Below are positions 54,315-64,000 of a stretch of DNA of 64,000 nt, in pieces. A program made the translations under genes and the position numbers. Origin of the DNA: Halobacteriales archaeon QS_1_68_20 (GTDB lineage: Archaea > Halobacteriota > Halobacteria > Halobacteriales > PXRE01); NCBI GenBank assembly GCA_003021085.1, contig PXRE01000009.1, forward strand, positions 1 to 64,000, read 5' to 3'. How positions within the stretch are numbered: position 1 is the stretch's first letter; every line of letters begins with the position of its first letter. A model generated the notes under the pieces. That model searched no databases and was not told the DNA's origin. It saw nothing but the letters and a program-made list of their open reading frames with translations.

Positions 54315-54782
54315 ATGGACGCGGTTCGAATCGCCTGGGGGACCGGGACGGGACCGACCGAACTGGCCGCCTACGACGCGGCGCTGGCCGACGCGAACCT
54401 GCAGGACTACAACCTCGTGACCGTCTCGTCGGTCGTCCCGGCGGGTGTCGAGGTCGAACAGGTCGGGACCGCACCGGACCTCGGGACGGCGGGCGAGCGC
54501 CTGCACGTCGTCCAGGCCCGCGCGACCGTCGACGGGCCGGGCGAGGTGGTCGCCGCCCTGGGATGGGCGACCGGCGAGGACGCCGGCGTCGTCTACGAGG
54601 CCACGGGCGGGTCCGAGGCCGCGGTGCGCGACGAACTGGCGGCCGGCCTCGCCGCTGGCAGCGAATTACGCGACCGGACGATGGACGAGCGGGAGTTCCG
54701 GGTCGTCTCCGCGGATGGGGAACCGGACTGCGCCACGGCCGCGGTCGTGGTCGCGGCGTTCGGTCGGGGCGACCCGATCTGA
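54315..54782 (+). CDS. pdaD: Pyruvoyl-dependent arginine decarboxylase
   Basis: 155 residues. N-terminal VRIAWGTGTGPTELAAYDAA and the self-cleavage site in LVTVSSVVPAGVEVE (between the two serines, near residues 38-39), which makes the pyruvoyl group. It converts arginine to agmatine, used by archaea to modify the tRNA-Ile2 anticodon. Neighbours PAN and the DUF5811 gene are conserved neighbours in my memory of haloarchaeal genomes. Confidence 0.92.
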   Translation: MDAVRIAWGTGTGPTELAAYDAALADANLQDYNLVTVSSVVPAGVEVEQVGTAPDLGTAGERLHVVQARATVDGPGEVVAALGWATGEDAGVVYEATGGSEAAVRDELAAGLAAGSELRDRTMDEREFRVVSADGEPDCATAAVVVAAFGRGDPI

Positions 54783-54825: not shown

Positions 54826-55206
54826 ATGAACGCGAACACCCCGTACGCAGGGCTGCCGGGCGTCACCCCGCCGGGCGAGCGCGCACCCGAGGACGTGTCC
54901 GAGGTGACCCCAGAGCAGCACCGTGCCCTCCGCGAGCACGTCTCCGAGATCGCGTCGCTGACCCGCGAGTACCTGCCCCACGAGTACGCGATCGGCGCCG
55001 AGGTCCGCCGCGGCGCGACCGGCCCGGAGGCGACCGTCGCCGTCGAACCACCGGTCGGCCACCCCGTCAGCGCCGGCCTCTCGCCCGAACTGAACGACAT
55101 CGAGGATCTCGACGTCGACGCCAGCGAGGTGGCCCGCGGCCTGGCCGCGACTGCGGCGTTGCAGGTCAAGCAGGCGATGGACGGCCATGACCTGGCCGCG
55201 CGATAG
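54826..55206 (+). CDS. Haloarchaeal conserved protein (DUF5811-like)
   Basis: 126 residues: MNANTPYAGLPGVTPPGERA, a helical region (EHVSEIASLTREYLPHEYAI), then VAVEPPVGHPVSAGLSPELN and a C-terminal helix. Resembles DUF5811; function unknown. Two AT-rich boxes 30-40 bases upstream. Confidence 0.78.
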   Translation: MNANTPYAGLPGVTPPGERAPEDVSEVTPEQHRALREHVSEIASLTREYLPHEYAIGAEVRRGATGPEATVAVEPPVGHPVSAGLSPELNDIEDLDVDASEVARGLAATAALQVKQAMDGHDLAAR

Positions 55207-55326
55207 GCCGGACCCGGCGGTCCGTTCTGCCTTCCGTCGCGGATCCGAGTGGCGACGCCGGGTGCCCGCTCGTAATCGCGTAACTGGCCCCCGAGCATTA
55301 TTGCCCTACGTTGCCTTGTTCCGGAT

Positions 55327-56323
55327 ATGCCCTTCAGCGTCTCGTGGCACACGCTTCTGGACGAACTCGAAGACCTCCCCGAGGGGTCAACGCTCATCAC
55401 GCTGCTGTCGCACGACCGATTCCGCGTCACCGACGTACAGGAGCAAACGGGTCGTCATCGAGTTTCTGGACCGGGACATCGAGGAGACACGACCACTCCA
55501 ACGCGACCAGGTCGAGACCCTCTATCGACGCATCAGCGACGAGCCGGGCGGCTTCGACCTCGACCGGCTCCCGCCCGATGCCGACCCGTACCCTGCCGTG
55601 CTGAGCCTCCACCCGCGCTTCGAGGCCGATGAAGACGCCAGGGTCATCACCGAAACCGAAGGTCCGACCTCGACACAACTCCTCGAAAGCGAACCCGAGA
55701 CGGACACTGCCGAGCGCACCGAACCGGACCTGGACGTGTATGCGGACGCTCTCCTGCTCGTTGACGCGCTCGAACGCCACGAGGTCGAGGTGCTGGAGGA
55801 GATGGACACGGACGCGCTCGTGAACCTCTACACCCTGCTCTCGGACGTACAGCGCAACGCCAACGACCTCCGACAGGACGTAGCCGACGTGCTGTTGAAC
55901 CGGCTCCACCACGACCGCCCGGTGTCCGGTCCGTTCGGCTCCGTCCAACGTACCACCCGGCGCAATCGGTCGCTCAAGGACGACGAGGAGGTCCTGGAGA
56001 CGCTCGAAGAGGTGGGTATCGACCGCGAGCGCGTGCTGGGTGTAGACCGTGATAAAGTAGACGACGCCCTTGAAGTGACAGAGCTGTCTGAATGCGACGT
56101 GTACGATATCGAGGAGTCCGAGTACGTCCGGAAGGCCGAGGTGGACGAGGAACGCAAGGAGACGCGCCTCCAGGGTCTCAAAGACCAGCTTGCGGCCGCC
56201 GAAGGCGACGAGGCCGAAGAACTGCGCGAGGAAATCGAGGAACTGGAAGGCCGCATCGAGGAACTAACCGAATTCAAGTCCGGGTCGCAGTTTCATACGC
56301 GGGCGGGCGCAGGCGGTAAATAA
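55327..56323 (+). pseudogene. Haloarchaeal protein of unknown function, frameshifted
   Basis: The first frame gives MPFSVSWHTLLDELEDLPEG and RFRVTDVQEQ. From about 55445 the sense continues one base later as RVVIEFLDRDIEETRPLQRD and runs to TAA 56321, with long helical, acidic sequence ending in a coiled coil (EAEELREEIEELEGRIEELT). One extra base (or two missing) would explain it. It stops 15 bases before the attL repeat, so it is probably part of the chromosome rather than of the inserted element. Confidence 0.65.
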
Positions 56324-56337
56324 GTAAATCCTGCTTC

Positions 56338-56351
56338 ACTTCCCCCAGAAG
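56338..56351. other. attL: left att repeat of the integrated element
   Basis: ACTTCCCCCAGAAG. On the minus strand, with adjoining bases, it codes FWGK followed by TGA, the displaced original end of infB. The same 14 bases recur at 63352-63365. Confidence 0.75.
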
Positions 56352-56380
56352 AAGGCGAATCGTGTATACGGACGTCAACA

Positions 56381-56391
56381 CAACTAAGTTG
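56381..56391. promoter_or_regulatory. Palindrome in front of the integrase operon
   Basis: CAACTAAGTTG, a perfect 5-1-5 palindrome about 30 bases before ATG 56418, where the TATA box should be. A candidate operator for the protein at 56418. Confidence 0.35.
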
Positions 56392-56417
56392 GTGGAGGTG
56401 TGAGTATCGGGTAGGCA

Positions 56418-56954
56418 ATGAGTGAGCAAGTTCACATCCGCGTCGGTGAATCCCGCCACGAAAAGTGGGTCAATCACGCCGAAGCGGAGTACGACGGGAA
56501 CATGTCGAAACTAATCCGCGCCGCGGTCGAGAAGGAAATCAGTGGAGCGGGCGACACCGCCACAGACGGCGCTCAGACGGTCGAACCGAACGGACGGATA
56601 GACGACATCCTAAACGGTGTTGAGGACAACGGAAGCGCCCTCGAAGCGATACAAGACCGCCTTGAGAACATGCACGACACCATGCTTTCGCAGGGTGGAC
56701 TTCCCGATAAAGTGTTTTCCGACGTGTACGGCGCTCTACCCGTGGTGAAAGACGGCTTCGAGGGGGCGGACAAGGACGCTATCGCCGTGGAGTTCGGCGC
56801 GACGGCGGCAGAAATCGCAGACGACGCGGGTGTGTCCGAACTCGAAGCGGAGCGGGCGCTTGTCCAACTCCGCTACGAGGACGAATACAGTGGCGTGGAG
56901 ATGTTGATGACTGAAGGGTTCGACTCGCCCCGCTACTGGTTGGAGGTACGCTAA
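56418..56954 (+). CDS. RHH-winged-helix protein, possible recombination directionality factor
   Basis: 178 residues. N-terminal VHIRVGESRHEKWVNHAEAE then NMSKLIRAAVEKEI suits a ribbon-helix-helix; the middle is a coiled-coil-like LNGVEDNGSALEAIQDRLEN; the C-terminus is a winged helix (TAAEIADDAGVSELEAERAL and PRYWLEVR). It overlaps the integrase ATG by one base (TAATG). In related haloviral integration modules such small partners control integrase direction, so an excisionase or regulator role is inferred. Confidence 0.7.
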   Translation: MSEQVHIRVGESRHEKWVNHAEAEYDGNMSKLIRAAVEKEISGAGDTATDGAQTVEPNGRIDDILNGVEDNGSALEAIQDRLENMHDTMLSQGGLPDKVFSDVYGALPVVKDGFEGADKDAIAVEFGATAAEIADDAGVSELEAERALVQLRYEDEYSGVEMLMTEGFDSPRYWLEVR

Positions 56955-58021
56955 TGAGTACCACGGACCCTATCGAGAGTTACCGCGATAGTTACGTTCT
57001 CCGTTCGCAGTCCGACGCGGCAGAAAACACGGTAAAGCGCCACGTCCGCCACCTCCGCATGTTCGAGACGTGGCTTCAAGAGCGCGGCAAGGATCTTCAA
57101 AGCGACATTGAGGTTGAGGATGACCTACTGCGGTTCCGTCGGTGGCTGAACCTGCGAGGGGCTGGCACCGAGTGTCCCGAGTGTGAGACGGTCGCGGACC
57201 CCTTCGAGGACCATTGTCCCGACTGCGGGGCCGACGTATCGGAGGGTGAACCAGTCGGCTATTCGGAAGGGACTATCAAGAACGCCACGGGGGCCATTAG
57301 CAAATTCTTCCAGATTCGTCGCCCCGATGACCCGAACCCCGTAGACGAGTGGGAACCCACGGGGTCGGACGGCAAGTGGTCAATTACCACGGACAAGAAG
57401 CGGGCGACTCGGGAAGGTGTGTTCTACCTCGAATCCGATGAGGTAGACCAACTGATTGAAGCGGCAGAGGGCTTTCGGGACAAACTGGTTATCCGTCTCC
57501 TGGTTTCCACGGGAATGAGGCGGTCAGAACTAATCAGCCTGCGACTGAGGGACGTGGAGCCTGGCCAGAAGCGAATCCGTATCTACGAGCGGAAGAACGA
57601 CGAGTATCGGACGGTCGGCTTTCGGTCGGACAAACTGGCGCGGAACCTGCGGATGTGGATTGACCACCACAGAACGCAGGAATACGGGGCCGACGAAAGC
57701 GACTACCTCTTTCCGCCAGACGGGAAGGGGGAGAGTGACCACCTGGGGGCCACCGTGGTACGGGATATAGTGGTTGAAGCGGCAGAACGCGCGGATATTC
57801 AGCAGTCCTACGGGAGTGACGCCCTCGGGAGAACACAACACCTTGTAACCCCCCACGCTCTACGGGCCACGTTCGCCGTCCAATGCGCCAAGAACGGGAT
57901 TCCCGCCCCTATGGTGAAAGAGGCTCTTGGCCACCACTCCCTGAACGTCACGGACATCTACACGTCCGTGATTGACGACGACGCGGCAGACATGATTCGG
58001 CGCGACGGACCTTCATTCTGA
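56954..58021 (+). CDS. int: Tyrosine recombinase (integrase) with zinc-finger-like insertion
   Basis: 355 residues. Catalytic set is complete: Arg189 (STGMRRSEL), Lys214, His301 and Arg304 (HALRATF), His327 (ALGHHS) and Tyr336 (DIYTSV). The N-terminal core-binding domain contains CPEC (Cys74, Cys77) and CPDC (Cys88, Cys91), a four-cysteine knuckle unusual at this place. It should catalyse site-specific integration at the infB att site. Follows the 56418 gene as one operon. Confidence 0.92.
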   Translation: MSTTDPIESYRDSYVLRSQSDAAENTVKRHVRHLRMFETWLQERGKDLQSDIEVEDDLLRFRRWLNLRGAGTECPECETVADPFEDHCPDCGADVSEGEPVGYSEGTIKNATGAISKFFQIRRPDDPNPVDEWEPTGSDGKWSITTDKKRATREGVFYLESDEVDQLIEAAEGFRDKLVIRLLVSTGMRRSELISLRLRDVEPGQKRIRIYERKNDEYRTVGFRSDKLARNLRMWIDHHRTQEYGADESDYLFPPDGKGESDHLGATVVRDIVVEAAERADIQQSYGSDALGRTQHLVTPHALRATFAVQCAKNGIPAPMVKEALGHHSLNVTDIYTSVIDDDAADMIRRDGPSF

Positions 58022-58185
58022 GTACCAACCGCGGACGGACCCACCTTCTACGACGCTACCCCACCTTCGGACAGTGGAAACACCGCTCCACGGGGTTCAG
58101 TGACCACCGACCGCCCCGCCCGTCGGGAGGACTCCCCGCGCCCGCCCCGCGTCGCGTCTAATCGGAACTGAGGACCCGCGCCCGC

Positions 58186-58827
58186 TCAGTCCGCCACGTC
58201 ACTCAGTGACAGTCCCGCCCATTCGAGTAGTTCGAGGGCGTCGTAGTGAGGGACCACTACCACGTCGGGATGCCAGTGGTAGCGGGCGGTATGGGTGTCC
58301 TCCGCATACCCGTCCCCGTCGTACCTCACCGTGGCGACGCCCTCACTGGCCAGTAGGCTCCGCAGGTGGTCGCCGTCCACGTCGAAGCCCCGTAGGTCCA
58401 CGTGGAGCGACCCGAATAGGGTCCCCACCCACGTCGCCCGCTCAGTGAGGACGAGACGCGCCGTGAGCGGTCGCAGTTGGGATACGTCCGTGGGTCCGTC
58501 GTAGGCCACGGACGGATGGGGGACCGACGTGAGCGCCCACATGTCGCTACTGGCGGGGTCAGTCGCTTCGACGTGGCGACGTGGGGAGTTCGCCAGCCAC
58601 CCGAGCGCGTCCGCCACGGACGCCAACCGCCACCGCTTGGTTGAAAACACCTCTAATCGGGATTCTGCGCCGTCGTCGCGGACGTTCGCCCCGAGAAGTA
58701 TCAGGTACTCCACTACCGCCCGCTGGCGGTCGGACAGTTCGGGGCGGTCGCAACGACCGACGGCGTAGTGTTGCCCAAGTCGCTCGAAGCGGTCGCCACA
58801 CTGCGGACACCTGTTCACGGTTTTCAC
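58186..58827 (-). CDS. Decayed LAGLIDADG-homing-endonuclease-like protein with zinc knuckle
   Basis: 213 residues from a GTG at 58827 (58818 also possible). N-terminal CPQCGDRFERLGQHYAVGRC is a C2HC knuckle of the kind that precedes haloarchaeal LAGLIDADG proteins. The following LSDRQRAVVEYLILLGANVR aligns with the first LAGLIDADG helix, but the catalytic GDG-like Asp is lost (EYLILLGANV). The rest (ALTSVPHPSV; HWHPDVVVVPHYDALELLEW) keeps the fold. Likely a DNA-binding protein without cleavage activity, or a degraded gene. Confidence 0.55.
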   Translation of the reverse strand: MKTVNRCPQCGDRFERLGQHYAVGRCDRPELSDRQRAVVEYLILLGANVRDDGAESRLEVFSTKRWRLASVADALGWLANSPRRHVEATDPASSDMWALTSVPHPSVAYDGPTDVSQLRPLTARLVLTERATWVGTLFGSLHVDLRGFDVDGDHLRSLLASEGVATVRYDGDGYAEDTHTARYHWHPDVVVVPHYDALELLEWAGLSLSDVAD

Positions 58828-59506
58828 GTAACTGAGCGGGAAACTACCCCGCTTAGAGACGATTTCTCGACATTTTGACGTATTTCGCAAAACCGTTTGC
58901 TACCATTCACTCCGCTGGATTCGTCCCACGGAGGACACCGCGCCCGCGTGATTCGCTCTTTGATTTCTCTAATTTTGTCGTTCATTTTTCACGTCCGTAT
59001 CCGTCGGGGACGTATCAGTTTGCGGAGGTATCTTGACCGCCAGCATAATCCCCGCGCGTGGCTCCACGTCGGTGGACCGCTCCGCCACCGACTTGACCGC
59101 TCCACGCCCACATCCCCAACGGGCTTACCCTATACTACGCCCAGCGGACAGAGACGGCCTAAAACGGCGGTTTCCGTTTAGGCGGGTGTGAGGGGGTCGC
59201 CCCGTGTTGGAGCGTTGGGGCGGAGTTATTAAATTGGGTTTGGCCATATCAGTTCTCCGACACTGGCGTCATCGCGTCTCTCGAAGGAATTGAGGCTTCT
59301 CACGGAATAACGGCCTTAGAACCGCTTAGAGCGTGTTAATAACGACTCACTCTAACTACGTACAAAGTGAAGGCAGTGGCCGAAGGCGACCACACGCGAC
59401 GAACAGCGGACGCCCGTCTTAGGCGTTCTACTCCCCGCCCTCACTCTGATTACGGTATTAGTGTGAGGACGGTGGACGTGGACGGCCACCGCCTTGGTGA
59501 TTAGAT
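58828..59506. other. Non-coding region of the element: possible origin or control region
   Basis: About 680 bases without a credible gene. AT-rich patches alternate with GC stretches. It holds one copy of the repeat shared with 62222-62371 (59131-59173, GCGGACAGAGACGGCCT), a CCTCAC/GTGAGG inverted repeat (59439-59444 and 59463-59468) and promoter-like TTATTAAAT and TACGGTATTAG. The small-gene operon starts directly after it. Confidence 0.5.
59131..59173. repeat. Element repeat, copy 1
   Basis: Shares GCGGACAGAGACGGCCT and ACGGCGGTTT with 62222-62261 (copy 2); an inverted third copy of its left half is at 62353-62371. All three are inside the integrated element and bracket the small-gene operon. 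Confidence 0.7.
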
Positions 59507-59671
59507 ATGGCCCGTGACAAACGGATTCGACTGAGCGAGGACGAAAAGGCGATTCTGAATGACCTGCGGAAACGGCGGTTCGGGGGCGACCAAACCCCCT
59601 ACGGCCACGTGGTCGCAGAACTCTGCCGATTCTACGACGCAGAGACGCAGAACACGAACGTGAAACTATGA
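59507..59671 (+). CDS. Small RHH-like DNA-binding protein
   Basis: 54 residues: RDKRIRLSEDEKAILNDLRK with a helical HVVAELCRFYDAETQ. Looks like a ribbon-helix-helix repressor. First gene of the overlapping block; its TGA overlaps the next ATG (ATGA). Confidence 0.65.
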   Translation: MARDKRIRLSEDEKAILNDLRKRRFGGDQTPYGHVVAELCRFYDAETQNTNVKL

Positions 59672-59841
59672 GCGGGGCGGAAACCTGCGAATCAGACGGG
59701 TGTGAGGGGTGGCCCGAGTTCCCCGACGACGACGGTGGTTACTACTGTCGTGGCTGTTACGACGGCGACCCCGAGTTTCGCCACGTTCCCGACGAACCGA
59801 CTGGATACCGAACCGACCTGATTTCGAGGCTTCAAGCATGA
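59668..59841 (+). CDS. Small cysteine-pair protein
   Basis: 57 residues with CESDGCEG and YYCRGCYDG, giving a possible four-cysteine zinc site, and an acidic centre (FPDDDGG). Overlaps the genes on both sides by four bases. Function unknown. Confidence 0.65.
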   Translation: MSGAETCESDGCEGWPEFPDDDGGYYCRGCYDGDPEFRHVPDEPTGYRTDLISRLQA

Positions 59842-59933
59842 GAAAAATGTACGACGACAACGACATTCCCGACGAACTGAGCGACGACGAACAGACCACC
59901 AAATACACCATCCCGCTGGAGGATGACGAATGA
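59838..59933 (+). CDS. 31-residue acidic protein
   Basis: RKMYDDNDIPDELSDDEQTT and a KYTIPLEDDE tail. ATGA overlap with the previous gene and with the next (TGA inside the next ATGA). Such tight packing supports translation despite the size. Confidence 0.5.
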   Translation: MRKMYDDNDIPDELSDDEQTTKYTIPLEDDE

Positions 59934-60067
59934 CTGAAATAAATCCCATGTTGGCGCGAAAGGCGCGGAACGTCGGTGTGGAGTCCGACCTATTCGACTA
60001 TACCGACCGCCAGAACGTCGATATTGAGGCGGTTCTTGAAACCGCCCTTGGTGAGGTGAGCGCATGA
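59930..60067 (+). CDS. Small protein of unknown function
   Basis: 45 residues: MTEINPMLARKARNVGVESD then LFDYTDRQNVDIEAVLETAL. Coupled on both sides by ATGA overlaps. No domain recognised. Confidence 0.55.
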   Translation: MTEINPMLARKARNVGVESDLFDYTDRQNVDIEAVLETALGEVSA

Positions 60068-60327
60068 ACGCCCTCACGGTCAAGAACCACCAGAACGTGG
60101 ACGCCTTCGACCGCCTCACCCTCAACACGGAGGGACGCCTTGAGTTCGAGGACGGGACGCTTACGGCGGTCTACCCCGACGGCGCGGAGGAAACGGAATA
60201 CGTGGTGGCGCTATTCCCCGTGGAGGGCGGGACGGTCGAACTCACCGACTCCGCCGTGGTCCTCGAAGCGACGGGGGACACCGTGGTGGCGTTGGTCCCT
60301 GCGACGGCCTACGGGGGTGGTGAGTGA
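60064..60327 (+). CDS. Small beta-rich protein of unknown function
   Basis: 87 residues: HQNVDAFDRLTLNTEGRLEF, TAVYPDGAEETEYVVALFPV, then VVLEATGDTVVALVPA. Regular alternation suggests a beta barrel. ATGA overlap with the gene before; its stop overlaps the next ATG by one base. Confidence 0.65.
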   Translation: MNALTVKNHQNVDAFDRLTLNTEGRLEFEDGTLTAVYPDGAEETEYVVALFPVEGGTVELTDSAVVLEATGDTVVALVPATAYGGGE

Positions 60328-60710
60328 TGTACGACGTTCGAGAAGCGCGGGACCGCGACGGCGACCCCGTGGAGGACCGCAGTGAGCGGATAGACGAACT
60401 CATGCGGAGCGACCGCGTGGGATACGGGGACGGCGACCCGTTGGCGGCAGATTCCTACTCGAACTACCCCGACCACCCCACGGAACTGTCCGCGCCCAAG
60501 TGGCGCGACTGGGTGGAGGTGCTTCTTTCCCACCCTGCGGTCGGTTCCTACGACGACGCGGTGGCGGAGGCGACGCCCGCCAGTGACCAAGTGAGTGTTA
60601 GACAGTGGCGTGAGGGGATTCAGAACGCCGCCAACGCCGCGGGCTTGGACGCGGGGGAACTTTCGACCTTAGCGACGACGGCGAACGGGACGCCACTGCG
60701 GACGCTCTGA
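60327..60710 (+). CDS. Small protein of unknown function
   Basis: 127 residues, hydrophilic, with DGDPVEDRSERIDELMRSDR, PAVGSYDDAVAEATPASDQV and a helical RQWREGIQNAANAAGLD end. An in-frame GTG at 60324 is an alternative start. No family recognised; belongs to the coupled block. Confidence 0.65.
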   Translation: MYDVREARDRDGDPVEDRSERIDELMRSDRVGYGDGDPLAADSYSNYPDHPTELSAPKWRDWVEVLLSHPAVGSYDDAVAEATPASDQVSVRQWREGIQNAANAAGLDAGELSTLATTANGTPLRTL

Positions 60711-60763
60711 GCGCCTTCACGGAACAGTGGCCCGACGACGCGGTACGGTCGAATAACCCGCTC

Positions 60764-61012
60764 GTGGTCGCCAACTTGTACGCGGGGCGTGGCCTGTCCA
60801 CGGCGGAGGTGGCGGACCTATTCGACTGTTCGGAGGACCACATTCGGGGCGTTCTCCGCCAGTGTAGCCTACTCGAAGCCGCGGAAAGTGAACAGGTGGA
60901 CCCGAAGCGCGAGAAGGACATTCGGCTTGGCGGGGCGACCGTCTCGAATCTGGATAACGCCGAACGGTCCAGCAGTGGCGGGCTGAACGTGGACGTGAGC
61001 GCGTTCGAGTAG
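60764..61012 (+). CDS. Helix-turn-helix protein
   Basis: 82 residues from GTG 60764. AGRGLSTAEVADLFDCSEDH then IRGVLRQCSLLEAAE is a clear helix-turn-helix. The open frame extends upstream (SAFTEQWPDDAVRS) without a better start. Follows the preceding gene by about 54 bases; probably part of the same operon. Confidence 0.65.
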   Translation: MVANLYAGRGLSTAEVADLFDCSEDHIRGVLRQCSLLEAAESEQVDPKREKDIRLGGATVSNLDNAERSSSGGLNVDVSAFE

Positions 61013-61083
61013 CGGGCGGTAACTGAGCGGTATGGTCGGGGTGGCGGTCGCTTCCCCGATTGGCCCACGTGACGGGCTTCATT

Positions 61084-61728
61084 ATGACGGCGACCACCAC
61101 CCAACAGCGGTACGATTGGCAGACTGAGGAACAGATAGCAGAACAAGAGTTCGCAGACGGCTACCACGTCGAACGGGACCGACGGACCCCCGAACGTGAC
61201 GGGTCCAACGACGCCCTCGAACACGACCAGAACGAGGGGAACCCGAACGCCACGACCATGTACGGGGGTCGCTCCTCGAACGGGTACGACCCGAACGAGC
61301 GACTCCCCGCTTGTGAGCGGTGGGCGACCAAGGGCGACAAGTTCGCCAGTCTGTGGGCGCGGAACGCGGGGGTAGATTCCCACCGCGCGCCACGTCGTAG
61401 TCGGGCGGAATGTAACAAGGCCAACGAACGAACCAAGGACCGCCAGCGGTTCGTTCAAGCCGTCGCCAACGCCCTACGGTTAGGGGAGGACGCGACGGAG
61501 CGGGCCAAGGAACTGGCGACCCTCCCCACGCCAAAGACCCTGAATTTCATCGGGGGACTGGATACGTGGCTTCTCGCGGTCACCCTCCACGCCGCCAACG
61601 AACAGCGGACGGTCATGCGGGTGGACCGCGACGCCCTCAAGGAGATTCGAGCGGACTGGGGCGTCACTACGGACCAACTGGCGACCGCCACCGAAAAGGT
61701 GGCGAATATCGTGAGGAAAGGGGCATGA
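61084..61728 (+). CDS. Helical protein, possibly cyclin/TFB-like
   Basis: 214 residues. N-terminus is polar (TQQRYDWQTEEQIAEQEFAD). The C-terminal half is helical: QRFVQAVANALRLGEDATER, DTWLLAVTLHAANEQRT, then VTTDQLATATEKVANIVRKG. The helix pattern and the position of an AA-alkyl-L stretch recall the cyclin fold of archaeal TFB, but there is no zinc ribbon. It could be a transcription modulator. The ATG 61084 is chosen; overlaps the next gene (ATGA). Confidence 0.6.
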   Translation: MTATTTQQRYDWQTEEQIAEQEFADGYHVERDRRTPERDGSNDALEHDQNEGNPNATTMYGGRSSNGYDPNERLPACERWATKGDKFASLWARNAGVDSHRAPRRSRAECNKANERTKDRQRFVQAVANALRLGEDATERAKELATLPTPKTLNFIGGLDTWLLAVTLHAANEQRTVMRVDRDALKEIRADWGVTTDQLATATEKVANIVRKGA

Positions 61729-62021
61729 CTTACGTCGAACAGTATGGGGTCCGAATCCCTGACGACGACGTGGCGAAGCGCATGGCCCGTTTGGAGAAAC
61801 CCCACCGCGACGAAACCGTGTTGAAGTATCTCCACTTCGAGTTAGGCATGTCGTCTGGCGACATCGGGCGACTGTTCGGGGTGAGACGCCAGACCATTCA
61901 GAAAGTGGTCCGCGGATTCGACTGGGAATTTCACCGACGGCGCGGGGATAGTCGCGTGGTCGGGGAGGAACAGCGGACGCTTGGCGAGTTCGAGCGGACC
62001 ACGCTTGAGGACCTGATTTAG
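61725..62021 (+). CDS. Helix-turn-helix protein
   Basis: 98 residues: MTYVEQYGVRIPDDDVAKRM, then LKYLHFELGMSSGDIGRLFG and VRRQTIQKVVRGFDWEFHRR, a clear helix-turn-helix of the resolvase or sigma-like sort. Last gene of the coupled block; a T-rich CTTCTTTTTC follows its stop and may end the transcript. Confidence 0.7.
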   Translation: MTYVEQYGVRIPDDDVAKRMARLEKPHRDETVLKYLHFELGMSSGDIGRLFGVRRQTIQKVVRGFDWEFHRRRGDSRVVGEEQRTLGEFERTTLEDLI

Positions 62022-62498
62022 CCGACCCTTCTTTTTCAACGTATCAAAAACGGCGTAGCAGTCGCTCAGTCGTTTGAAATCGTACAAAAAGCGAAAAGCG
62101 GGAAAGGTCGTAGCGGGCCACCACCCAGTGACCATACCGTGACTGCGAATGTCCCGACTGAGGACGGACGACAACTGAGGCAGGTCACGGGCGTCCTTTT
62201 CGCCTCTCCGCCTCACTCATATGTATGCCCTGCGGATAGAGACGGCCTGAGACGGCGGTTTTCAGATATTGGCCCGCTGGCGGTCGCTCGAACGCTCAAA
62301 CACGGGCGGACCCCCGCGTGGGGACGAAAACGGATTCGGGCGGTACAAGCGTTCTCTGTCCGCAGGGCATAGTATTAGGTAGGCCCGTGAGGGGGAAGGG
62401 CGTGGAGTAGTCAAGGCGGTGGCGGGCGGTCACACCGTCGTGGAGCCTGCGCGGGGATGTTGCTGGCTTTCGTATTATGCAATAATTGAAACATCGTC
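62022..62498. other. Gene-free part of the element
   Basis: Contains a possible terminator (T-rich stretch at about 62027-62036) and the 148-base inverted-repeat segment at 62224-62371. An open frame of 77 codons at 62139 spans the inverted repeats and is not credible. Confidence 0.5.
62224..62371. repeat. 148-base segment bounded by 19-base inverted repeats
   Basis: Left arm 62224-62242 and right arm 62353-62371 (TATGCCCTGCGG start, 18 of 19 match). The left arm also lies in the copy of the repeat at 59131. The inside has no gene. It could be a miniature inverted-repeat element, a replication origin or a regulatory locus. Confidence 0.65.
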
Positions 62499-63017
62499 GT
62501 GAACTTGATAGAGTTGGCGAGAGGCCGTTTTTATATGGTAAACATCGCTAACATTCTCGCAACAAGTGGATTAGGGCTTGATATTGTCGGAGCCGCCGTC
62601 ATCGCTCTCCCCGACATCCCAAGACTGAGACTTGTTCTTGGGTCGGCAGTTATTCGGAATGGACTTGAAAAAATGGAGAGTACGGGGATTCAAGAAGGCG
62701 AAATCGGATATTCGCCGCTCAGGGAATTACTTGAGACGAAATACGACGTAGAGTTTCCATCCGATGTATGGGCCTTCAGAGTAGGTCAGTCCACTGCGTC
62801 AAGATATGGGTATGAATCTGTATTTTTGTTCACCGACCCTGAAGATGAGTCAGAGCAGGTGGCATTAGGTAAAGACTTGGGGGTTGATGTTGATTACCGC
62901 GTGGTCAGAAAACAGATTCGACCACTTCTCGACCGACAGCAGGCTATTGTCCGCGCAAGTGGTTTCCTTTTACTGAGTCTTGGGTTTCTTCTACAAATCG
63001 TGGCGCGATATATTTAG
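62499..63017 (+). CDS. Membrane protein near the right end of the element
   Basis: 172 residues from GTG 62499; ATG 62535 is an alternative. One membrane helix near residue 25 (SGLGLDIVGAAVIALPDI) and one at the C-terminus (ASGFLLLSLGFLLQIVARYI) frame a soluble domain (ESTGIQEGEIGYSPLRELLE; YGYESVFLFTDPEDESEQVA). A TATTAT box lies 27 bases before the GTG. The gene is less GC-rich than its neighbours. Function unknown. Confidence 0.65.
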   Translation: MNLIELARGRFYMVNIANILATSGLGLDIVGAAVIALPDIPRLRLVLGSAVIRNGLEKMESTGIQEGEIGYSPLRELLETKYDVEFPSDVWAFRVGQSTASRYGYESVFLFTDPEDESEQVALGKDLGVDVDYRVVRKQIRPLLDRQQAIVRASGFLLLSLGFLLQIVARYI

Positions 63018-63349
63018 GTGGGTAAATTAGTCCACGCCGAGCGCGGCCAATTGGGTCCTCACTGAGAAAACAGAAAATGAGGCTCAAACACGGGTGTGGG
63101 GGTCGCCACATATGCGCCAGAGTGATTTTCAACACGTGGCGGGCGCTCACCCACCCCTTACACTACGCGAGAAGGGACCCGTTTCGTGTGTAATGTTGAC
63201 GGGGAGGGGTGGATTCGGTCGCCGTCTGGCGGTTTCGAGGCGTTCGAGAGAAGCCATTCCTCACCAACCTATCAGACTGTTAGAGTGGTCTGGCGGGTTA
63301 GACCCCCGATAGCCCCTGAACTGTATACACAGGCGACTACACAAAACGC
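63018..63349. other. Right end of the element without a gene
   Basis: No credible gene. It contains GTATACAC (63323-63330) mirrored at the left end by GTGTATAC (56362-56369), likely arm-type sites for the integrase. Confidence 0.5.
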
Positions 63350-64000
63350 CTACTTCCCCCAGAAGGGGTCCCGCGACCGGCGCTTCTCCAGGTACATGTT
63401 CAGCGCCTCCCGCTCGTCCATCGGGATGTCCTCCAGCAGTTCCTGCTCCAGGATCTTTGCGTGTTTCTCCGGCAGGTACGTCCAGAGTTCGTCGCCCTCG
63501 TCGACCTGGCGGCCGACCGTCGGGCCGTCGATGGCGACGCTCATCCGCTCGCCCGCGCGGGCCTCGTCGACGTCCTCGCCCTGGTCCTGGATGCCCTGGA
63601 CCTCGCCGACGCGCTCGGGGTCGTCGCCGTCGAACTTCGCCACGCCGACGTTGCGCTCCAGGGTGCCGGACATGACCTCGACGCCGATCACCGCGGGATC
63701 GGACTGGCGGAAGACGTGGTCCTCCAGGATGCGGAACCGGCACGGCCGGGTGATGTTCTCGAGCACCTGCTCCTGCTGGGCCTGCTCCAGTTCCTCGACG
63801 AACTCCTCGTATTCCTCGACCAGGCGGTAGATGACCTCGCTCTCGAAGATGCGGACGTCCGCCAGGTCTGCCTCGTCGGCGGCGTCGTCGAGCACGTCCA
63901 CGTTGAACCCCAGGACGACCCGGTGTTCGGGCTGATCGGCGGTGTCTGCGACCGTCACGTCACGGGGAGCGACGTCGCCGACCTCCGCGCGGACGATGGG
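63350..64000 (-). CDS. infB: Translation initiation factor aIF5B (C-terminal part)
   Basis: The frame runs off the right edge of the window. 216 residues are visible: VVLGFNVDVLDDAADEADLA, FRQSDPAVIGVEVMSGTLER and NMYLEKRRSRDPFWGK, from the domain IV/beta-barrel region of aIF5B. It joins initiator tRNA and the ribosomal subunits. The last codons FWGK and TAG are part of the att repeat and come from the inserted element; the original end (FWGK-TGA) is at 56338. Confidence 0.95.
   Translation of the reverse strand, partial: PIVRAEVGDVAPRDVTVADTADQPEHRVVLGFNVDVLDDAADEADLADVRIFESEVIYRLVEEYEEFVEELEQAQQEQVLENITRPCRFRILEDHVFRQSDPAVIGVEVMSGTLERNVGVAKFDGDDPERVGEVQGIQDQGEDVDEARAGERMSVAIDGPTVGRQVDEGDELWTYLPEKHAKILEQELLEDIPMDEREALNMYLEKRRSRDPFWGK
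63352..63365. other. attR: right att repeat of the integrated element
   Basis: ACTTCCCCCAGAAG, identical to 56338-56351, lying inside the last codons of infB. Confidence 0.75.

Follow-up and report, generated by a model that had tools for sequence, protein, structure and literature searches.

This study concerns an integrated element at the 3' end of the infB gene of Halobacteriales archaeon QS_1_68_20 (GCA_003021085.1). The stretch analysed, called the window throughout, comprises 64,000 nt of contig PXRE01000009.1. The 3' part of infB, which codes for aIF5B, occupies 63350..64000 on the minus strand; it has matches in 58 relatives, and the gene runs beyond the window end. The full open reading frame (ORF), read in locus L142, gives a complete aIF5B of about 607 aa with the C-terminus ...RSRDPFWGK. 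An intein in infB, prompted by a 991-aa open frame, was rejected, the surplus length being an upstream open frame. The element, including both of its attachment (att) cores, spans 56338..63365 and is defined by repeats, a step in G+C content, synteny and pairs of empty and occupied sites in relatives. Its repeat unit is 7,014 bp, and the G+C content inside this interval is 60.0%, compared with 68% in the flanks. An earlier note on this DNA had reported a 14-base direct repeat at both ends, each copy coding FWGK and then a stop on the minus strand, and both points hold exactly. ACTTCCCCCAGAAG is present in two exact copies in the window (56338-56351 and 63352-63365), and none of 100 dinucleotide shuffles of the window yielded two matches, even with one mismatch allowed. 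The minus-strand reading of each core is TTC TGG GGG AAG followed by a stop codon. The proximal core, 63352..63365, makes up the final codons of infB and runs into TAG (63350-63352), whereas the distal core, 56338..56351, runs into TGA (56336-56338). This distal TGA is probably the original infB stop of the host. There is no tRNA gene in the window. Targeting of a tRNA gene was rejected, the element loci being without tRNA except for one distant tRNA-Gln in L109.

Relatives are referred to by locus and genome. L061 is G058, L067 is G018, L068 is Halorientalis marina GDY88, L107 is G177, L139 is G287, L138 is G191 and L063 is G008; L136 and L137 are G102 and G172, congeners of G058, and L062 and L069 belong to QH_7_66_36, which carries an element at menB. 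The window genome assembly is 81.5% complete, and some assemblies of relatives are incomplete. The ORFs of the element were scanned against Pfam, PHROGs and NCBIfam; viral comparisons used 50,697 phage records and viral contigs, and plasmid comparisons used PLSDB.

The integration module consists of a recombinase, an accessory gene and two arm dyads. The tyrosine recombinase of 355 aa (56954..58021, plus strand) matches PF00589 at 1.7e-30. Its active-site motifs R-HxxR-H-Y are intact and it has a zinc-ribbon-like insert at about 72-94. The match to XerA_Arch of NCBIfam (7.5e-41) is under the family cut-off. The enzyme is 87% identical to the H. marina integrase; an integrase-alignment scan of genome contigs found only H. 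marina and QH_7_66_36, and the comparison with phages gave only distant XerD-like proteins. Directly upstream lies the gene of an accessory protein of 178 aa (56418..56954, plus strand), whose stop overlaps the integrase ATG. The protein has a ribbon-helix-helix (RHH)-like N terminus by eye and no match in Pfam. Its identity is 83–84% in L061 and L068 and 63% in L062, and it is a candidate directionality or architectural factor. A fold model was too poor for use, with a predicted local distance difference test (pLDDT) score of 38. Each of the two cores is bordered on its inner side by a palindrome with the pattern TGTGT-(about 11 nt)-TACACA, which is found in the menB element too. The left arm dyad CGTGTATACGGACGTCAACACA covers 56361..56382 and the right arm dyad TGTATACACAGGCGACTACACA covers 63322..63343; in the infB and menB elements alike, the dyad is conserved at either end. 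These dyads are likely arm sites.

The comparison of empty and occupied infB sites shows how the element is placed. DUF5811 and pdaD adjoin infB in many element-free relatives, some hundred to about 1,100 bases away, and in the window DUF5811 (54826-55206) and pdaD (54315-54782) sit beyond the distal side of the element. The infB gene of relatives has a single FWGK-stop. The infB loci of 29 relatives were read, and the element arm sequence follows the infB stop in G018 alone. When the flanks of the G058 element (L061) are joined, they match L136 with 96% identity and no gap and L137 with 95% identity and one gap, each over 900 bp, and the match to these empty congeners, G102 and G172, runs through a single FWGK-TAG. 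In G287 (L139:2094-2963), a unit of 855 bp from att to att lies between FWGK-TAG and FWGK-TAA. The far flank of this unit, CGGTCCGGTGG, stands directly after the stop in the empty G191 (L138). The near-isogenic empty sites of both comparisons hold a single FWGK-stop att, which supports the reading of the 7-kb interval as an integrated element that the earlier note had put forward. Relatives with the element elsewhere and without repeats, which would speak against this, were not encountered; the same integrase sits at the same infB site, with repeats, in L061 and L068. For relatives of the window organism, the empty infB site is predicted to read FWGK-TGA and then GAAGCAGGATTT.

Two further features were seen near infB ends. 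In G008 (L063:2036-3438), a distant integrase and an RHH-like gene lie directly after infB, which ends in FWAK-TAG. A distal att was looked for at this infB-adjacent integrase and not found, and G008 is therefore not counted as occupied. In the window, between DUF5811 and the distal att (55206-56337), the ORF 55187-56323 codes for a charged, coiled-coil-like product. Its 5' part looks frameshifted (overlapping ORF 55327-55632). This ORF was not found in the relatives' loci examined, and it may be what is left of an earlier insertion at this position.

The two cores differ in their stop codons. For the infB copy and the distal copy, respectively, the stops are TAG and TGA in the window, and TGA and TAG in L061. 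The distal TAG of L061 is the stop of its empty congeners, and the infB copy is now TGA. H. marina has TTCTGGGGG-AAG-TAG at infB and TTCTGGGGC-AAG-TGA on the distal side, so that GGG-AAG-TAG stands against GGC-AAG-TGA. On the simplest reading of these sequences, the H. marina crossover would be best placed inside TTCTGGGG, and the element would therefore provide the final base of the Gly codon together with the Lys codon and the stop. It is also possible that the distal copy, free of coding constraint, mutated later. In the window, L061 and L068 alike, an element-derived stop takes the place of the host stop with the protein unchanged. The proposal that aIF5B is left unchanged except for its stop codon stands as far as the protein sequence is concerned; however, H. 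marina suggests that the protein end is restored by the element rather than untouched.

These observations argue for a small haloarchaeal integrative element whose recombinase and upstream accessory protein recombine a circular form with the last infB codons (probability about 0.9). The recombinase, the accessory protein or both would bind the palindromic arms, and the crossover would fall inside TTCTGGGG. The attP site would supply the sequence from the end of the final Gly codon through the Lys codon to the stop, leaving the essential gene whole; an infB site used in this way would therefore be tolerated and always available.

The cargo block begins with m234 (58186..58890, minus strand), a degenerate LAGLIDADG-fold protein. 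Its kin are haloarchaeal proteins matching PF03161 LAGLIDADG_2 (best 1e-10). The best Foldseek matches are I-Tsp061I, I-SceI and I-DmoI, with LAGLIDADG endonucleases and WhiA among the best PDB matches; because the model is of low confidence (pLDDT 50), the assignment leans on the sequence relatives. The acidic residues of the two motifs, MGD and CDG in relatives, are absent from m234 and six close homologues, leaving m234 without the catalytic Asp of both motifs. Most likely, m234 still binds DNA but has lost the ability to cleave it. It gave no match to a HUH Rep, and its one HWH, near the C terminus, is not conserved in homologues. A small-ORF operon follows, flanked by an imperfect inverted repeat of about 140 nt with its left arm at 59039..59179 and its right arm at 62328..62467. 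The arms in the window are 74% identical over 120 nt. Comparable long inverted repeats are present in L062, L103 and L106. Both in the window and in L062, an arm resembles its partner in the same element and not the arms of the other element.

All genes of the operon are on the plus strand. The small ORF p54 (59507..59671) shows 67% identity in L062, and the Cys-rich p57 (59668..59841) shows 52% in L062 and occurs also in L102 and L103. Two small ORFs of 31 aa (59838..59933) and 45 aa (59930..60067) come next, with overlapping ATGA junctions. The p87 gene (60064..60327) has relatives in L108 and L111, and its positional partner in L062 is p96, which has a 37% relative on a Halomicrobium plasmid. 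The products p127 and p110 (60327..61012), HTH-like (helix-turn-helix) by eye, correspond to one gene in homologues, here called the p245-type gene. It is frameshifted near 60,700 in the window and an intact ORF in seven homologues; the frameshift may be decay, a sequencing error or a programmed shift, which cannot be told apart. The p127/p110 gene is a candidate for a replication or maintenance protein, and p127 is 32% identical to a protein of plasmid NZ_CP084094.1. The product p213 (61084..61728) is without detectable homology to its positional equivalent in L062. A TFB-like assignment of p213 was rejected, since the L062 equivalent has a TFIIB zinc ribbon and p213 aligns to it at only 23%. 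The HTH DNA-binding protein p98 (61725..62021) has weak HTH matches in Pfam and PHROGs and 46% identity in L062.

Relatives of m234, p54, p57, the p127/p110 gene and p98 are all held by L062. Subsets of the block recur in L102–L106, which with L062 makes six other haloarchaeal loci. A different tyrosine integrase adjoins m234 in each of L102–L106, suggesting that the cargo block and the integrase are exchanged as modules. The block would thus be a common backbone brought to different sites by different integrases. The p96/p245 pair has relatives on the 4,491-bp circular Halomicrobium urmianum plasmid NZ_CP084094.1. Because two block proteins have relatives on this 4.5-kb plasmid, a replication or maintenance role is favoured, and the most likely function of the block is to replicate, maintain or control the excised circle.

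The genes near the infB end vary between elements. In the window this position is held by p160 (62535..63017, plus strand), a protein with two hydrophobic segments that was found in 14 of 394 genomes. In the 855-bp unit of G287, no gene other than its homologue (87% identity) is recognisable, and an integrase is absent; the unit is possibly an att-flanked gene cassette or a deletion remnant. The infB elements of L067, L061 and L068 have, respectively, a DpnII/MboI-type nuclease (6e-38), an Mrr-type nuclease and a protein with a weak HEPN match. The p160, nuclease and HEPN-like genes would be exchangeable cargo, and an anti-virus role for them is a guess. Deleted derivatives at infB are found in three genomes, G287, G018 and G177. 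L067 (G018) has both cores and a truncated accessory gene, and L107 (G177) has the infB core, the right arm and a truncated accessory gene.

Several points weigh against the interpretation as a small integrative element that recombines at infB. In the assembled sequence analysed, neither a circular form nor excision was seen. The empty sites compared are those of relatives of G058 and G287, two other occupied genomes, and none belongs to an organism closely related to that of the window. The role of the accessory protein rests on position and conservation, with a poor fold model. The p245-type gene is frameshifted, and the window copy may therefore be decaying. Finally, the replication role is only inferred, with no known Rep motif or family match.

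The strongest competitor is a more specific form of the same interpretation, in which the inverted-repeat-flanked operon is a small cryptic plasmid, a replicon that captured an integrase. The plasmid-borne p96 and p245 relatives speak for it, as does a block architecture that stays constant while the adjacent integrase changes. However, the Halomicrobium plasmid is without long inverted repeats, m234 and p98 and has no known replication gene, and no extrachromosomal copy of the whole block was found in PLSDB; we regard this origin as possible and hold it tentatively. The earlier view that the element has no recognisable virus or plasmid functions goes too far with regard to plasmids: no virion genes were recognised, but proteins of the block do have relatives on a 4,491-bp plasmid. 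Relaxase or conjugation genes gave no match among the element ORFs scanned. A satellite that borrows the particles of a helper virus, as bacterial phage satellites do, would also be small, with an integrase, no virion genes and several DNA-binding proteins, and the defence-type cargo at infB in relatives would suit it. We consider it unlikely, as no packaging signal, terminase-like gene or capsid-modifying gene was identified and no sequence in common with any halovirus was found among the phage records and viral contigs. Still less probable is the reading of the element as a defective provirus or as a small pleolipovirus-like virus in its chromosomal form. The size and integrase do resemble temperate types such as SNJ2, in a family with genomes of about 7–16 kb (PMC13107129). 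Against this, PHROGs gave a match for the integrase and otherwise only weak HTH/HNH-type hits. The phage records contain no relatives of p160, the p245 homologue or the L062 TFB-like protein, and the viral contigs contain none of the integrase, m234 or p160; spike, capsid and packaging ATPase were not recognised. A chance repeat match within ordinary genomic variation, for which only the shortness of 14 bp speaks, is refuted by the near gap-free empty and occupied pairs, and the shuffles, the recurrence of this core and these arms at infB in further genomes and the synteny broken by the element all argue against it.

The small haloarchaeal integrative element has relatives that use other targets. 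At infB, the accessory gene and integrase are found in L061 and L068. The G058 integrase is interrupted by an inserted transposase-like ORF (L061:5879-6703). In QH_7_66_36 (L062/L069), a 50%-identical integrase is located at the menB 3' end with the 15-bp att TAGTGCCACGGGAAC and the protein end FPWHY. The infB and menB integrases form one clade (support 100/100). A distant integrase in L129 is also at the menB 3' end (8306 and 12018, integrase-oriented), with YPWHY-TAA and in opposite orientation, and the menB target was therefore reached at least twice. The integrases of the wider family, surveyed by repeats and reading frames, are about 30–48% identical to one another, and several have the same accessory gene upstream. 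Their candidate att pairs fall within protein genes, at a distance of about 600–730 bp upstream of the integrase. With the flanks joined, TspO (L064), TctA (L110) and amine oxidase (L112) become continuous proteins with a Pfam domain across the junction, and GNAT (L111), an ABC exporter (L109) and a sensor kinase (L116) become single ORFs. These six target genes appear to be split internally and not restored; the att pairs proposed for L108, L119 and L126 are less clean than those of the six loci. Somewhat short of even odds, we suggest a broad haloarchaeal lineage of small integrative elements whose integrases are specialised in protein genes, often with an RHH-like gene. Some would restore 3' ends (infB, menB), and others would split genes (tspO, TctA-type, ABC exporter, amine oxidase, GNAT, sensor kinase) and could be reversible on/off switches, while integrase-less infB units such as the 855-bp p160 unit could be gene cassettes mobilised in trans.

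Integration into protein genes has precedents. In archaea, att sites in protein genes are recorded for BJ1 (in HMG-CoA reductase), Msmi-Pro1 and NitGar-E6, at which recombination was not tested (PMC8371274). In thaumarchaea, 14 of 68 elements lie in 3'-distal regions of protein genes, and one of them, NitEve-E2, of the class 'cryptic integrated elements', swaps the stop codon and restores the frame (PMC6563490). The present element is like NitEve-E2 in its short att (13 bp there), its protein-gene 3' end and its element-supplied stop with the frame restored. Compared by description, the thaumarchaeal elements differ in phylum and target; the present element uses infB, its recombinase clade is accompanied by a conserved adjacent accessory gene and the block is found in seven haloarchaeal loci. 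SNJ2-type pleolipoviruses are likewise small and haloarchaeal, with a classical tyrosine integrase, a short att (13 bp there) and small cofactors (PMC8371274, PMC13107129), the threshold for assignment to their integrase family being 30% identity across 60% of the protein (PMC8371274). However, SNJ2 has a tRNA-gene target, virion genes and the Rep-Arvir replication gene, none of which was recognised here. SGI1 (trmE 3' end) and the dusA islands also have their att within the end of a conserved gene (PMC8409611, PMC4482086), but those are bacterial, with unrelated cargo. Plasmid NZ_CP084094.1 shares the adjacent p96-type and p245-type genes in the same order; an integrase, m234, p98 and long inverted repeats were not found on it. 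In the literature searched, no description was found of infB as an archaeal integrase target or of this cargo block. The elements therefore seem to form a family of small integrative elements of haloarchaea that has not been described before. The suggestion that this is an undescribed kind of element appears to hold for the family and its backbone; 3'-end insertion with a swapped stop was already known from NitEve-E2.

The finding identifies an archaeal translation gene, and an essential one, as a recurrent hotspot of insertion, and it also defines a small-element backbone. Clean empty and occupied pairs are available, and Halorientalis marina is a named strain usable at the bench. The integrases also give a view of target change, since close enzymes use infB and menB, a distant one uses menB again and others split genes. 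Should the relatives that split genes turn out to be excised in a regulated way, they would be the archaeal equivalent of the phage-controlled gene switches of bacteria.

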